The position numbers and the translations under genes are program-made. DNA of 64,000 nt, from contig WRIL01000001.1 in the NCBI GenBank assembly GCA_009782775.1, forward strand, positions 1-64,000, written 5' to 3'. This stretch comes from Desulfovibrionaceae bacterium. GTDB taxonomy: Bacteria > Desulfobacterota > Desulfovibrionia > Desulfovibrionales > Desulfovibrionaceae. Every line of letters begins with the position of its first letter. Position 1 is the stretch's first letter. Under the pieces are notes generated by a model, which did no database searches, was not told the DNA's origin, and saw nothing but the letters and a program-made list of their open reading frames with translations. Below, piece after piece: positions 21,731 through 59,228 of this stretch.

Positions 21731-22942
21731 GTGTCGCATCTGTATATAGCGCTGGTGGGATTGCCGGCCAGGGGCAAATCCTTTCTGGCCGCCCGCCTGC
21801 TGGAAGGTTTGGAGGCCGACGGGCTGAAAGTCCGCCTGTTCAATAACGGGGATCTACGCCGGAGCAGGCTGGGCGCGGCCTCTTCCCTGCCGGAATTTTA
21901 CGCCCCTGAAAATGAGTCGGCGCGCCGGCAAAGAGAGGAACTGGCCAGGATCAACATGGAGCAGGCCAGGGATTTCCTGGCTGGCGGCGGAAATGTGGCC
22001 GTGCTGGACGCGGCCAACATCAGCCGCCAAAGACGGCGCGTTCTTGAAGAAAACCTGACGGACGCGCCCATTTTGTTCATTGAATGTATCAATAACGATG
22101 CGGAACTGCTCGAGGCGAGCATCGAACGCAAGGCCGGACTGCCCGAATTTTCCGGATTCGGCCTGGCCGCGGCCAAGGAGAGCTTCGTGCGGCGCATCGG
22201 CTACTATGAGCGGCTGTATGCGCCCTTGCGGGAAGAAAGGCATTTCGTCCGGGTGGAAACGCTGCACAACCGCATCCTGGAAGAGCGCGACTGCGCCGGC
22301 ATTCCCTTTTACATCCAGATCCGCGACATTTTGGTTTCCGACTGGGTGCGCCATCTCTATCTCTTGCGGCACGGACAAAGCGAATACAACGCCCAGAATC
22401 GCATAGGCGGCGATTCCGGCCTGACCGGCAAGGGCCGTAAACAAGCCGAAGCTCTGGCCGCCCATTTCCAACCCTTTGACCTACCTTATATTTTCACATC
22501 CTCCCGCAAGCGGGCCAAGGAAACCGCCGCCCCACTGCTGCAAGGACATCCCGGCAGCATCCACATCATGCTCCCGGAATTTGACGAAATCAGCGCCGGG
22601 GAATGCGAAGGCATGAGCTATACGGAGATCCGCCGGAATTTACCCAAGGAATACGCCGCCCGCCAGGCTGATAAATACGCCTATGTCTATCCAGGCGGAG
22701 AGGGTTACATCACCTTGAAAGACCGGGTGGGCAAAGGTTTCCGCAAGGCCCTGTTCCTCTCCGGGGCCGCGCCGGGGATCGTGATTATCGGACACCAGGC
22801 CATCAACCGGATGATCCTCTCCCTGTTCTTTTTCCGCCGGAACGAGTCCGTGCCGTACATCTATGTGCCGCAGAACGAATACTTCCACATCGTGTCCACC
22901 CATCGCCAGACCCTGCTGGAGCTGGTGCGTTTTACCGAATAA
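21731..22942 (+). CDS. Bifunctional 6-phosphofructo-2-kinase / fructose-2,6-bisphosphatase-like protein
   Basis: The 403-residue protein reproduces the animal and fungal PFKFB layout. The kinase half has Walker A GLPARGKS (10-17), the RLFNNGDLRR segment, LDAANISRQRRR and a PFK-2-type ADAPILFIECINND-like strand. The phosphatase half is a histidine phosphatase: LLRHGQSEYN (H214), NRIGGDSGLTGKGRKQAEAL, FDEISAGECEG (E286) and IIGHQAINR (H355). These are the phosphohistidine, acid and second His of FBPase-2. Such enzymes make and destroy fructose-2,6-bisphosphate, a regulator rare in bacteria. The start is GTG. Whether a bacterial target for F2,6BP exists here is unknown. Confidence 0.85.
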   Translation: MSHLYIALVGLPARGKSFLAARLLEGLEADGLKVRLFNNGDLRRSRLGAASSLPEFYAPENESARRQREELARINMEQARDFLAGGGNVAVLDAANISRQRRRVLEENLTDAPILFIECINNDAELLEASIERKAGLPEFSGFGLAAAKESFVRRIGYYERLYAPLREERHFVRVETLHNRILEERDCAGIPFYIQIRDILVSDWVRHLYLLRHGQSEYNAQNRIGGDSGLTGKGRKQAEALAAHFQPFDLPYIFTSSRKRAKETAAPLLQGHPGSIHIMLPEFDEISAGECEGMSYTEIRRNLPKEYAARQADKYAYVYPGGEGYITLKDRVGKGFRKALFLSGAAPGIVIIGHQAINRMILSLFFFRRNESVPYIYVPQNEYFHIVSTHRQTLLELVRFTE

Positions 22943-39151: not shown

Positions 39152-39230
39152 AGACTACCCTCTTGATCTGTTTTACGACAGTTTGCCGCAGGCGTCAAAA
39201 GAACGCGGCACGAGGGAGGAGGAACGCGTT

Positions 39231-40649
39231 TTGGACCTGCATGAACACAAAGTGCTTATTGCCAACCGGGGCGAAATCGCCATACGCATCCTCAAGGCCT
39301 GCCGCAAACTTGGTCTGGAGTTTGTCTGCGTCCACACCCAGGAGGATCACGCCTCCGGACATGTGCGCCTGGCCCGCGGACTGGGCGGAAGCAAAAGCCT
39401 GTACCGCATTTCTTCCTATCATGACGCCAATGAGCTTATGGCAGTGGCGGACGAATCCGGGGCCACGGCCATTCATCCGGGCTACGGCTTTTTTTCGGAG
39501 GATTACCGTTTTGCCCGCCGGGTCATTCAGCGCGAGCGGGAGATGATCTTCATCGGCCCCTCCTGGCGCATAATCCGCGAACTTGGGGACAAGATCAACA
39601 CTAAACGCCTGGCCCGCAGCCTGGATGTACCTACGGTACCCGGATCCGACCGTCCCATCTACGATGAAATGGAAGCCGAGGAGCTGGCCCGCACCCTGTT
39701 CAATTTTCAGACGGACAACCAGATCCGCAATCCCCTGGTGCTGATCAAGGCCTCGGCTGGCGGCGGCGGCATGGGCATTGAAGAGGTGCATGACCCGGAT
39801 CTCTTCCGTTCGGTCTATCGCCGGGTGCGCAACTATGCGGCCAGGCAGTTCAAAGACGAGGGCGTGCTTATCGAGCAACGCATCCGTGACTTCAACCACC
39901 TGGAAGTGCAAATCCTGGCGGATCGCAACTGCAAGACCCTGGTGCATTTCGGCACCCGCAACTGTTCCATCCAAAGCACCGGCTTGCAGAAACGCCTGGA
40001 GGTGGCGCCGGGCTTCGATCCTTCCTCGGTTTCCTATAACTTCGACGCCGCCGGGGTCCTGGAACAAATCATCCGGCACTCCCTGAACATCGCCCACAAG
40101 GTGCGTTACGACAACGCCGGCACCTGGGAATGGATCGTCACCCGCGAAGGCAACCCTTACCTGATGGAAGTCAACGCCCGCATCCAGGTGGAAAACGGCG
40201 TTTCCTCCGCCATTACCCGTATCCGGGGGCAGGAAGGCGTTGATCTCCTGGTGGAACAGATCCGCACCGGCCTGGGCGATCCCCTGGGATATACCCAGGA
40301 GGATATCAGCTTTGAAGGCGTAAGCCTGGAATACCGGATCATCGCCGAGGACCCCGAACAGCGCTTCACCCCCTGGGTGGGGAGGATTGAGCGTTTCCAC
40401 CAGCCGGAGGAACCCTGGCTGACCATGCACAGCCATGTGCCAACTGACGAGCCATATGACATCCCCACGGAGTTTGACCCCAATCTGGCCCTGGGGATCA
40501 TCTGGGGGCGAGATTTGCAGGAGGCGCGGGGCAGAGGGCTCTCCTTTCTGAAAAAAATGATCCTGGAAGGCCGTACGGCCCAGGGCGAGCCCATGAAGAC
40601 CAACCTGGAATTCCTGAAAAAGAAGACCGGGGATATTCTGAAATTCTAA
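39231..40649 (+). CDS. Biotin carboxylase subunit (AccC/PycA-like)
   Basis: The 472-residue enzyme has the ATP-grasp biotin carboxylase core: KVLIANRGEIAIRILKACRK, IHPGYGFFSEDYRFARRV, LVLIKASAGGGGMGIEEVHD, the ATP/bicarbonate site ending EVNARIQVENGVSSAITRIR, and a C-terminal domain with SLEYRIIAEDPEQRFTPWVG. It carboxylates the biotin of the carrier protein with ATP. The start is TTG 39231, chosen because GGGAGGAGG stands 8 bases upstream and the family N-terminus follows; no ATG fits. HVRLARGLGGSKS replaces the usual A-D-x-A-V-x-I-G stretch, so it belongs to a divergent branch. Confidence 0.88.
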   Translation: MDLHEHKVLIANRGEIAIRILKACRKLGLEFVCVHTQEDHASGHVRLARGLGGSKSLYRISSYHDANELMAVADESGATAIHPGYGFFSEDYRFARRVIQREREMIFIGPSWRIIRELGDKINTKRLARSLDVPTVPGSDRPIYDEMEAEELARTLFNFQTDNQIRNPLVLIKASAGGGGMGIEEVHDPDLFRSVYRRVRNYAARQFKDEGVLIEQRIRDFNHLEVQILADRNCKTLVHFGTRNCSIQSTGLQKRLEVAPGFDPSSVSYNFDAAGVLEQIIRHSLNIAHKVRYDNAGTWEWIVTREGNPYLMEVNARIQVENGVSSAITRIRGQEGVDLLVEQIRTGLGDPLGYTQEDISFEGVSLEYRIIAEDPEQRFTPWVGRIERFHQPEEPWLTMHSHVPTDEPYDIPTEFDPNLALGIIWGRDLQEARGRGLSFLKKMILEGRTAQGEPMKTNLEFLKKKTGDILKF

Positions 40650-40671
40650 GCCTCATGGCGGGCGTAAAATA

Positions 40672-42954
40672 ATGGACACCGATAAGAAATTTCAGCAGAT
40701 CATCGAACAGCTGAACTACATACGGGATATTCTGGCAGGCAAGAACAACGAAAATCTGCGCCTGCTCTCCTCCCGCCTGGAGGACATGCAGTCACGCCTT
40801 CCCTCCATGAACCAGGAAGAACGCCTGGCCGCCGCGGAATCCCTGGATGACCTGTTCAGTTTTGTGGAGAAAAAGCTGGAGGCCGAACTGACCCCCATGG
40901 ACAAGGTGCGTATCGTGCGCCATCCGCAACGCATCTGCCTGCGCGACATCCTGGAAAACGTCTACGACAATTACACGGAAATCGGCAGCATGAACGAGCA
41001 TTCCATCGACCCGGCCATCCTCATCGCCAGGGCCTATATCACCCGCAGACAGGGCAAGAAAACCCTGCGCCAGTCGGTCATGGTCATCGGCCAGGAAAAA
41101 GGGCACGGCGAGGAGATCCGCAACGGCGGCTCGGTCAAGCCCTGGGGCAACGCCAAGGCCCTGCACTACATGAAGGTGGCGGAAACAGAAAACATCCCCA
41201 TCCACATCTATGTTTTCACGCCAGGCTCCTATCCTATTGAGGACACCCCGGGAGCGGCCCAGCAGATTGCCAAAAACATCTATGAAATGGGCAGCCTGCG
41301 CGTTCCGGTGCTGGCGATCTTTTCCGAAGGCGGCAGCGGCGGGGCCGAGGCCGTGGGGCTGGCGGACAAACGCCTGATGCTTTCCCACGGCTATTATTCG
41401 GTCATCTCCCCGGAAGGGGCGGCGGCCATCGAGGCCAATCTGAAGGAAAGCAAAAGGCGCGCTCCGGCGGAACTCATTGAAGACTGCGCCCGCAACCTGT
41501 GCATCACCGCCGAGGATAACCTGCGCCTGGGCTATATTGACGAAATCATTCAGGAGCCGGTGCTGGGGGCGCGCTGCCATAACTTTGAGTTCTTCAGGCA
41601 GTTGCGTCAGGACGTGCTCCGGGCCACCGATGAAATCGTTCTGAGCGTGCGGGGAATTGAGCCCATCCGCTCCATGTCCTTACGCGCCCGCCGCAAAAAA
41701 ACCTCTGAAGGCGGACTTAACCTGGAAACCGTGTGCATGCGCTGGAACCTTTCCGCCGCGGCCCAGGAGCGCCTGCTGGACCTCCGGCACCGGAAATTCC
41801 GCGCCCTGTCCCAAAAGGCGCATGACGACACCCGCGGGCGCTTACAACTTTTCAAGGATCACCTGAGCAGCTTCTGGTGGGAATTCAGCTCCTATTTCAA
41901 GTACGATCTTTTCCGCCGCAGCCAGCAGAATTTCTCCAACTTCCTGCGGGAACTCCATTCCGAGACGACCTTTTTCGTGAAAAAACAGACCGTGCCCCTC
42001 CGCCGCTTTCTGCGTCCCCTGCTGCCCCTGTTCCGCGTACGCCGGAAAAGGCACCTGGAAGAGGCCAAGCTCACCGCCCTTTCCACCTGGGAAGAACCAC
42101 AGGAACAACGCGGGGGCAACTGGGCCTATGTCAGCCCACGGGCCACGGACGACCGCGCCATATCCTGCCCCAACGCCGCCACCCACGGTTGCCTGGATAT
42201 GTGGGCCCCGGACCTCTTCGGCGAATTCGCCGGGGTCTGCGCCAACTGCGGGCACCACTTCCCCATGGAATACAAATGGTATCTCTACAACCTCTTTGAC
42301 CCCGAATCCGTGACCGAGTTCAATACCGGGATCGAGGCCATAAATCCGCTAAAATATCCGGGATTTGACCTGAAACTGGCCAAGGCCTCCGCCCAAACCG
42401 GGCAAAAGAGCTCCTGCATGACCTTCGAGGCCAGTATCAACGGCATCAGGCTGGTCGTCGCCATGTTCCTCGCCCCGTTCCGTGGCGGGTCGGTGGGAGC
42501 GGCCGAGGGGGAAAAGTTTATCCTGGCCGCCGAGAGGGCGGGCAAGAAACGTTACCCCTTCCTGGCCTATGTGCATGGAACCGCCGGCATACGCATCCAG
42601 GAAGGAACCAACGGGCTAATCCAGATGCCCCGTTGCACCATGGCCGTGCGCCGCTATATTGACGACGGCGGCCTCTACCTAGTGGTCTATGACACCAATT
42701 CCTACGCCGGACCGGTGGCCAGCTTCCTAGGCTGCTCGCCATACCAGTTCGGCATCCGCTCCTCCAACATCGGCTTCGCGGGTTACGGAGTGATCAGGGA
42801 AACCACCGGCGAGGCCCCTCCGCCCCACTACCATAACGTCTTCAAGGCCATGGCCCGCGGGCATATCCAGGGCATCTGGGACCGTAGAGAGACCCGTTTC
42901 AACCTCTACCAGGCCATGCTGACCATGGGCGGGCGCAACCTTTATTATCAATGA
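40672..42954 (+). CDS. Single-chain acyl-CoA carboxyltransferase, alpha and beta parts fused
   Basis: The 760-residue protein joins an AccA-like N-terminal half to an AccD-like C-terminal half. The first half (about 60-330) has RHPQRICLRDILENVYDNYT, ARAYITRRQG, RNGGSVKPWGNAKALHYMKV, TPGSYPIEDTPGAAQQIA and IFSEGGSGGAEAVGLADK. A linker of about 130 charged residues follows. The second half (about 500-760) has zinc-site cysteines (ISCPNAATHGC and VCANCGHHF), FRGGSVGAAEGEKFILAAER and a catalytic GIRIQEGTNGLIQMPR stretch. It should transfer the carboxyl group from biotin to acetyl-CoA. Fusions of these two subunits are uncommon in proteobacteria. Confidence 0.85.
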   Translation: MDTDKKFQQIIEQLNYIRDILAGKNNENLRLLSSRLEDMQSRLPSMNQEERLAAAESLDDLFSFVEKKLEAELTPMDKVRIVRHPQRICLRDILENVYDNYTEIGSMNEHSIDPAILIARAYITRRQGKKTLRQSVMVIGQEKGHGEEIRNGGSVKPWGNAKALHYMKVAETENIPIHIYVFTPGSYPIEDTPGAAQQIAKNIYEMGSLRVPVLAIFSEGGSGGAEAVGLADKRLMLSHGYYSVISPEGAAAIEANLKESKRRAPAELIEDCARNLCITAEDNLRLGYIDEIIQEPVLGARCHNFEFFRQLRQDVLRATDEIVLSVRGIEPIRSMSLRARRKKTSEGGLNLETVCMRWNLSAAAQERLLDLRHRKFRALSQKAHDDTRGRLQLFKDHLSSFWWEFSSYFKYDLFRRSQQNFSNFLRELHSETTFFVKKQTVPLRRFLRPLLPLFRVRRKRHLEEAKLTALSTWEEPQEQRGGNWAYVSPRATDDRAISCPNAATHGCLDMWAPDLFGEFAGVCANCGHHFPMEYKWYLYNLFDPESVTEFNTGIEAINPLKYPGFDLKLAKASAQTGQKSSCMTFEASINGIRLVVAMFLAPFRGGSVGAAEGEKFILAAERAGKKRYPFLAYVHGTAGIRIQEGTNGLIQMPRCTMAVRRYIDDGGLYLVVYDTNSYAGPVASFLGCSPYQFGIRSSNIGFAGYGVIRETTGEAPPPHYHNVFKAMARGHIQGIWDRRETRFNLYQAMLTMGGRNLYYQ

Positions 42955-42966
42955 CGAGGCAAGCCC

Positions 42967-43626
42967 ATGCTGGACATAAGCGCGCTACTTGATGAAATAA
43001 AGGCTTCCCCCTACCAGGAATCCTCCATTCTGGCTCCCCATTCCGGGGTGCTCAGCCTCAGTCCGGATCTGGCCCCAGGCAGCCGGGTCCAGGGACCGCA
43101 CGGCCCCTGGAAGGAAAAACCCGGCACCCTCCTGGCCTGCCTGGAACGCGAACATAACCGTAAAGAGATCCGCGCCCCGGAAAACTGCGAGATCGTTTCC
43201 TGCAACTTGGAGGCGTCCGGAACCTTTGTGGAGGCCGGCACGGTACTGGCACGGGCGCGGCACAAGCTCTCCAGGGAAGAGGTGTTGCAGATACTCCTGA
43301 AAAAGGCCCTCTTCCTCTTCCTGGCCCCGGAAAAAGCCCGGTACTACTTCATTCCCCAGGTAGATCTCAAGGTCAAAAATTCTCCTCCAAAAAGCGTCTC
43401 TGTATATAACGGGATGGATTTATTCATTATTTCGCGCATGAAGCGCGAAAGCAGCCTCAGTTACTCCGGCCCTGACGGGGTGATCTATGCCGTTTACTTC
43501 AGCTTCAACAGCAACATGGAAGCGGGATCCCCGCTCATCGGCGTCTGTCCTCCGGACATGGTGCGGCAGATCGAGGAAGTCAGCCTGCGGGTGCAGACCG
43601 AATGGCAGGAGCCGGGGGAGGCGTAG
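42967..43626 (+). CDS. Divergent biotin carboxyl carrier protein
   Basis: The 219-residue protein has a C-terminal biotinyl domain in which the attachment motif reads SRMKRESSL (K159), in place of E-A-M-K-M. It is followed by a normal second half: SGPDGVIYAVYFSFNSNMEA then GSPLIGV. An N-terminal barrel-sandwich-like segment (SILAPHSGVLSLSPDLAPGS, then GTFVEAGTVLARARHKL) looks like a second, lysine-less biotinyl-like domain. Placement 12 bases after the fused carboxyltransferase and on the same strand as the biotin carboxylase makes it the carrier of this complex. The two-residue departure from the motif leaves biotinylation to be proven. Confidence 0.7.
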   Translation: MLDISALLDEIKASPYQESSILAPHSGVLSLSPDLAPGSRVQGPHGPWKEKPGTLLACLEREHNRKEIRAPENCEIVSCNLEASGTFVEAGTVLARARHKLSREEVLQILLKKALFLFLAPEKARYYFIPQVDLKVKNSPPKSVSVYNGMDLFIISRMKRESSLSYSGPDGVIYAVYFSFNSNMEAGSPLIGVCPPDMVRQIEEVSLRVQTEWQEPGEA

Positions 43627-58682: not shown

Positions 58683-59228
58683 CTATAACGGAAGCAGTTT
58701 CTGTTTGACCAGAAATTGATAGACAGCGGCGGCGGCCAGACATTTTGCGGCCCCGCCGGGCAGAAAGGGCAAGACCCCCACGGCCAGGGCTTTTTCCAGG
58801 GATATATGCAACACCAGCATAAGCTGGACAGTGCCGGCCAGGAGGGTGACGGCGGTGCCGCCGACGCAGATGAGCAGGGCGGGCAGGTATTTTTTCACCC
58901 CCAGACCGCGGGCCAGACCGCAGAACATGGCTGACGGGATAAAGCCCAAAAGAAAACCTCCGGTGGGTCCCAGAAGCACGGCCAGCCCGGCCTTGCCCCC
59001 GGCAAATACCGGCAGGCCGAGGCTCCCGGCGGCCAGATAAAGCGTCACGGCCAGGGTTCCGTTGCGTGCGCCCAGAGTCAGGCCGGCAAGCAGCACAAAA
59101 AGGGTTTGCAGGGTAACGGGCACAGGCCCTATGGGCAGGGCGACGAACGCGCCCACGGCCACCAGGGCGGCCAGCAGCGAGGTCCAAACCAGACGGTGGA
59201 TGCGGCGCAGCATGAATGGTTGAGACAT
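58683..59228 (-). CDS. bioY: Biotin transporter BioY
   Basis: The 181-residue membrane protein has six hydrophobic segments and the BioY signatures LPIGPVPVTLQTLFVLLAGL, LAAGSLGLPVFAGGKAGLAV and GPTGGFLLGFIPSAMFCGLA. BioY is the substrate-binding S-component of ECF biotin importers, and some forms work alone. No ECF ATPase genes are nearby. It follows the MBL-fold gene by 16 bases on the same strand. Biotin supply fits the carboxylase with biotin carrier elsewhere in the window. Confidence 0.93.
   Translation of the reverse strand: MSQPFMLRRIHRLVWTSLLAALVAVGAFVALPIGPVPVTLQTLFVLLAGLTLGARNGTLAVTLYLAAGSLGLPVFAGGKAGLAVLLGPTGGFLLGFIPSAMFCGLARGLGVKKYLPALLICVGGTAVTLLAGTVQLMLVLHISLEKALAVGVLPFLPGGAAKCLAAAAVYQFLVKQKLLPL

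Follow-up and report, generated by a model that had tools for sequence, protein, structure and literature searches.

We analysed a 64,000-nucleotide stretch of DNA (the window) from a Desulfovibrionaceae draft genome of 1.74 Mb that is 84.6% complete. An earlier sequence-only reading had pointed to three adjacent genes for an unusual acetyl-CoA carboxylase, the enzyme with which fat synthesis begins, and we found the three genes as described. They encode a biotin carboxylase (BC), a carboxyltransferase (CT) and a biotin carrier. The features of the locus are as follows.

39214..39222, forward strand: Shine-Dalgarno-like sequence GGGAGGAGG, 8 nt 5' of the TTG start
39231..40649, forward strand: biotin carboxylase gene, a divergent AccC, 472 aa, TTG start
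40672..42954, forward strand: carboxyltransferase gene, an AccA-AccD fusion, 760 aa
40768..41637, forward strand: CT alpha half, AccA-like, residues 33-322; contains the motifs SEGGSGGA and ISPEG
41647..42132, forward strand: CT linker, residues 326-487, poorly conserved and mostly helical, low-confidence model
42166..42915, forward strand: CT beta half, AccD-like, residues 499-748; contains AGPVASFLG and four conserved Cys
42967..43626, forward strand: two-barrel biotin carrier gene, 219 aa
43009..43266, forward strand: carrier barrel 1, residues 15-100; a biotinyl-domain fold that lacks the acceptor Lys
43312..43551, forward strand: carrier barrel 2, residues 116-195, bearing the acceptor hairpin
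43441..43443, forward strand: K159 codon, the predicted biotin site in ISRMKRE; MKR invariant in relatives
58683..59228, reverse strand: bioY, S component for biotin uptake (PF02632, E=1.8e-41), 15 kb from the cluster

The gaps between the genes are 22 nt (BC to CT) and 12 nt (CT to carrier), which suggests that they form one operon. The cluster lies between a divergent gene for a purine nucleoside phosphorylase and a convergent ferredoxin-type gene, NapH-like as read from its sequence. In comparisons with close relatives each of the three genes had a dN/dS of about 0.1-0.2, apart from one pair in which dS was saturated. All three genes are under purifying selection wherever dS could be estimated. 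The bioY gene, which had been proposed to feed the carboxylase, is real, but any link to the carboxylase is conjectural. Elsewhere the window contains a bacterial small SRP RNA (RF00169, 12615-12712) and a gene for a bifunctional 6-phosphofructo-2-kinase/histidine phosphatase-like protein (21731-22942), a pairing better known from eukaryotes.

The BC had been described as divergent and as starting at TTG, and both points are borne out. It scores over the cut-offs for PF00289, PF02786 and PF02785 and below all NCBIfam AccC cut-offs. The start codon at this position is likewise TTG or GTG in close relatives, most of which have an in-frame stop just upstream. The residues of the ATP, bicarbonate and biotin sites are conserved. 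In E. coli numbering, the catalytic positions K116, K159, H209, E211, Q233, K238 and E276 are kept in 95/95 sequences, as are E288, R292, Q294, V295, E296 and R338, and N290 is kept in 94 of the 95, the remaining sequence being unreadable there. R167 -> M, H297 -> N and G162 -> A are substitutions found throughout the lineage. By sequence, the BC active site is intact.

The CT is, as had been proposed, an alpha-beta fusion in one 760-aa open reading frame with both AccA and AccD profile matches (PF03255, E=1.4e-51; accD TIGR00515, E=3.5e-38), which lie under the curated equivalog cut-offs. The AccA part comes first, followed by the linker and then the AccD part, and in 16 genomes the CT is a single fused open frame of 739-863 aa. 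The SEGGSGGA, ISPEG and AGPVASFLG motifs are conserved among CT relatives, and C499, C507, C523 and C526 are invariant across 51 aligned rows. These four Cys are common to the E. coli zinc ribbon, but their spacing is different and zinc is putative here. The structural model is of moderate confidence (mean pLDDT 76.8); it matches E. coli CT-alpha (2f9y_A) with Z 28.9, and CT-beta folds across residues 512-758. By sequence, this is an AccA/AccD-type carboxyltransferase that is intact within one chain, alpha then beta.

The 219-residue carrier does contain RMKRE, as had been noted, and its model has a pLDDT of 94.2. Barrel 1 matched E. coli BCCP (1bdo) with Z 12.2 and an rmsd of 2.7 over 74 residues; the matches listed in this structure comparison were taken up by barrel 1. 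Barrel 2 was aligned with E. coli BCCP by profile comparison (90.7% probability), with MK placed on MK, and in the model K159 sits at the tip of a hairpin formed by strands E151-157 and E160-165. We found that M158-K159-R160 is invariant in 101/101 carriers. Every one of these has Arg at +1 of the Lys, and the (A/V)-M-K-M site is absent. Barrel 1 had been called lysine-less. It does have no acceptor Lys, with LEREHN at the place of AMKM, but lysines are present elsewhere in it, so the claim holds for the acceptor position and not for the barrel as a whole. Arg61 of barrel 1 is invariant in all 101 carriers; six relatives have a Lys at the barrel 1 tip, and the residue before it is Glu or Gln, never Met. 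Only barrel 2 has an acceptor lysine, with K159 as the predicted biotin site. PF00364 is matched by 58 of 61 carrier relatives at E<=0.1 (best 7.3e-12), and no Pfam match, PF00364 included, was reported for the window carrier itself. An origin of the two barrels by internal duplication was considered and set aside, the profile comparison of barrel 1 with barrel 2 giving 8% probability.

Sampling of the class Desulfovibrionia showed the carrier in 195 of 199 genomes. Across 395 genomes sampled from the phylum it occurs in 70, of which 53 lie outside the class. Named relatives that bear it include Desulfovibrio, Nitratidesulfovibrio, Halodesulfovibrio, Pseudodesulfovibrio, Bilophila and others. 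Of about 100 loci examined, almost every one has BC, CT and carrier in synteny; the exceptions are mostly cuts at contig ends, and one carrier (L175) lies apart from BC and CT. The subunit plan had been predicted to differ from that of AccABCD, and comparative genomics agrees, but the cluster is not peculiar to the window genome: its enzyme is standard in the class and in several sister lineages. This is a genuine acetyl-CoA carboxylase variant that extends across the class. One family of the same order is without the module and carries genes for PCC-type carboxylases, which appear to have replaced it; in two carrier-less genomes of this family (G128, G177) the PCC-type proteins have EAMKM sites. 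In a third genome of the family, G159, which is 99% complete, we found neither a carrier nor an AccA-type match.

A full canonical accABCD set was looked for and not found, the window genome having one BC and one CT match. Within this 84.6% complete assembly no canonical biotinyl domain (Biotin_lipoyl) scored over cut-off. In 16/16 carrier genomes that are complete or nearly so, nothing but the fused CT gives an AccD-type match, and apart from the BC of the cluster the sole full-length BC in them is pyruvate carboxylase (PYC) or a PYC-like BC subunit. The cluster should therefore be the housekeeping acetyl-CoA carboxylase, and very probably encodes the only such enzyme of the cell, and of the class as a whole, with both biotinylation and acetyl-CoA specificity predicted. 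In databases the three-gene enzyme is presumably annotated piecemeal. In the open-licence papers searched we found no dedicated description of this enzyme in Desulfovibrio, nor of the system, and Lombard and Moreira 2011 make no mention of Desulfovibrio.

Each of ten single-contig genomes from the sister lineages encodes two biotin ligases. One of the two, found in all ten, is a standalone ligase whose motif is canonical, and the second often adjoins the carrier gene. The carrier-adjacent ligases form one clade in the tree with support 100/100. A profile built from 13 of them was run over the 395 genomes and scored >200 bits in 50, and one further copy was split in two (G409). This dedicated clade is present in 51 of the 53 carrier-bearing genomes that lie outside the class vs 0 of 325 carrier-less genomes (Fisher p 2.6e-61, which carries no correction for the relatedness of genomes), and in 35/51 the ligase lies within 2.5 kb of the carrier. 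The two carrier genomes outside the class from which it is absent are G227 and G374. In G387 the ligase (L170 9663-10472) forms part of an open frame of 682 aa that includes a long N-terminal extension; it lies 2.4 kb from the carrier.

The dedicated ligases keep the adenylation residues R118, R121, K183 and N208 in 30/30 sequences. They also have S89 -> R, Q112 -> L/M/V and S125 -> A, all in 30/30, and Thr90 is kept in 10 of the 30. In E. coli BirA, S89 and T90 are hydrogen-bond partners of biotin (PMC2384007), so cofactor binding by the dedicated ligases must differ in detail. Since two residues expected to contact biotin (S89, Q112) are missing, these may not act as ordinary biotin ligases.

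Nine class genomes other than the window genome were searched, and each has one ligase. The class ligases group in a clade of their own (100/100), and the tree rules out their membership of the carrier-adjacent clade. In 9/9 of them R118 is replaced by Q, the motif reading GRGQ(L/V)RR in place of GRGRRGR. Judged by coordinates, the class ligase adjoins the PYC gene; a pattern search for the PYC neighbourhood on the ligase loci gave no match. The biotin site of class PYC is SIMKQE (NISIMKQE) in 7/7, so the carrier and PYC acceptors share S-x-M-K-(R/Q)-E. The PYC site is EAMKMQT in both sister-lineage genomes where it was readable. Class PYC also has a Cys-rich C-terminal tail (CxxC...CPxCG type) beyond the biotinyl domain.

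No biotin-protein ligase was detectable in the window genome, an 84.6% complete draft. Its one candidate, the only PF03099 match, was rejected as BirA because its sequence is that of an apparent lipoate ligase. This genome lacks both PYC and the ligase that goes with it. Since the two are neighbours in relatives, a single assembly gap is the likely and simplest account.

We propose that biotin would be attached to K159 of carrier barrel 2 and carboxylated there by BC using ATP and bicarbonate. Carboxybiotin would then swing to the fused CT, which would make malonyl-CoA for fatty-acid synthesis, with barrel 1 probably serving to dock the carrier on BC or CT. Since the site reads S-x-M-K-R-(E/D) and not E-A-M-K-M, attachment may depend on a co-diverged ligase, a suggestion that we rate at a little under an even chance. 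In the class, the BirA homologue with GRGQ(L/V)RR would serve the carrier and also PYC with SIMKQE; in the sister lineages the carrier would be served by a second, dedicated ligase, whose gene usually lies beside that of the carrier. The ligases and both acceptor sites have diverged together, which points to an altered biotin-acceptor code. We tentatively suggest, with the balance tipped slightly against, a second such code in which S-x-M-K-(R/Q)-(E/D) carriers are recognised by co-diverged ligases, those with Arg for BirA Ser89 in the sister lineages and the natural R118Q ligase in Desulfovibrionia, and stand functionally separate from the canonical EAMKM/BirA pair that the sister lineages also keep. 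The divergence of the biotinylation machinery alongside the carrier is new, and it offers a strong lead on altered biotinylation in these bacteria.

An alternative is that the cluster encodes the same acetyl-CoA carboxylase and that an ordinary biotin ligase of any kind suffices to modify the carrier, so that the ligase clade and R118Q would reflect lineage history or gene regulation. This would account for the class genomes and the two sister genomes that have the carrier without a dedicated ligase, and it fits the canonical-motif standalone ligase of the ten sister single-contig genomes. However, it does not predict that the dedicated clade is confined to carrier genomes, with 35 of its 51 copies adjoining the carrier, nor that both class acceptor sites are shifted while the two readable sister PYCs are canonical. 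We consider this explanation a serious but somewhat doubtful one. It is very unlikely that the cluster carboxylates another acyl-CoA, such as propionyl-CoA, and that acetyl-CoA is carboxylated elsewhere: acyl-CoA specificity is not fixed by sequence alone, but the CT is of AccA/AccD type and none of the 16 carrier genomes has a further AccD-type match. That the carrier has lost biotin and become a structural subunit, as its departure from AMKM and the lack of a Pfam match for the window carrier might suggest, is extremely improbable given an MK that is invariant in 101/101 under purifying selection, the conserved biotin-site residues of BC and the lack of any other biotin carrier over cut-off in the window genome.

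Biotin attachment is usually described as conserved to the point that a single BirA and a single AMKM-type site are enough for all of life. Here, across a whole class of sulfate reducers, an essential-type enzyme and its ligase both depart from this norm. If the pairing of ligase and carrier is specific, these would be natural and possibly orthogonal biotinylation pairs, and would include a naturally R118-substituted ligase, altered at the position that is mutated for promiscuous BioID. The cluster is also the likely source of malonyl-CoA where canonical AccA/AccC/AccD models fall below their cut-offs.

The dedicated ligases resemble E. coli BirA in matching TIGR00121/PRK08330 and in their R118, R121, K183 and N208. 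By its locus number, DVU1835 of D. vulgaris Hildenborough may, we assume, be of the PYC-adjacent ligase type. It has been reported as another putative biotin ligase besides birA (DVU2557), and no link was drawn there to the acetyl-CoA carboxylase carrier or its acceptor site (PMC10102598). Unlike E. coli BirA, the class ligases have Q in place of R118, the position altered in BioID, which is based on the R118G change that renders BirA promiscuous (PMC7302878).

The enzyme shares with E. coli AccA/AccB/AccC/AccD homologous BC, CT-alpha and CT-beta, conserved catalytic residues and a biotinyl-barrel carrier. In contrast to that four-subunit enzyme, CT-alpha and CT-beta are fused here in one 760-aa open reading frame, the carrier is two-barrelled with SRMKRE instead of EAMKM, and BC and CT score under the curated AccA/C/D cut-offs. 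Chemistry and folds are common to the propionyl/acyl-CoA carboxylases. Those enzymes consist of a BC-BCCP alpha chain and a CT beta chain of about 520 aa, whereas BC and carrier are unfused here and the CT is AccA/AccD-like with alpha first. An alpha-then-beta CT is also found in AccS/AccADCB of Shewanella oneidensis, a single-chain acetyl-CoA carboxylase (PDB 9kkm; AccS in PMC11602165), and our CT model matches 9kkm over both halves with Z 28.9 across 489 residues at 19% identity. Shewanella AccS is one 1517-residue chain that also holds BC and BCCP, whereas here the enzyme is divided among three open reading frames with BC and carrier separate.
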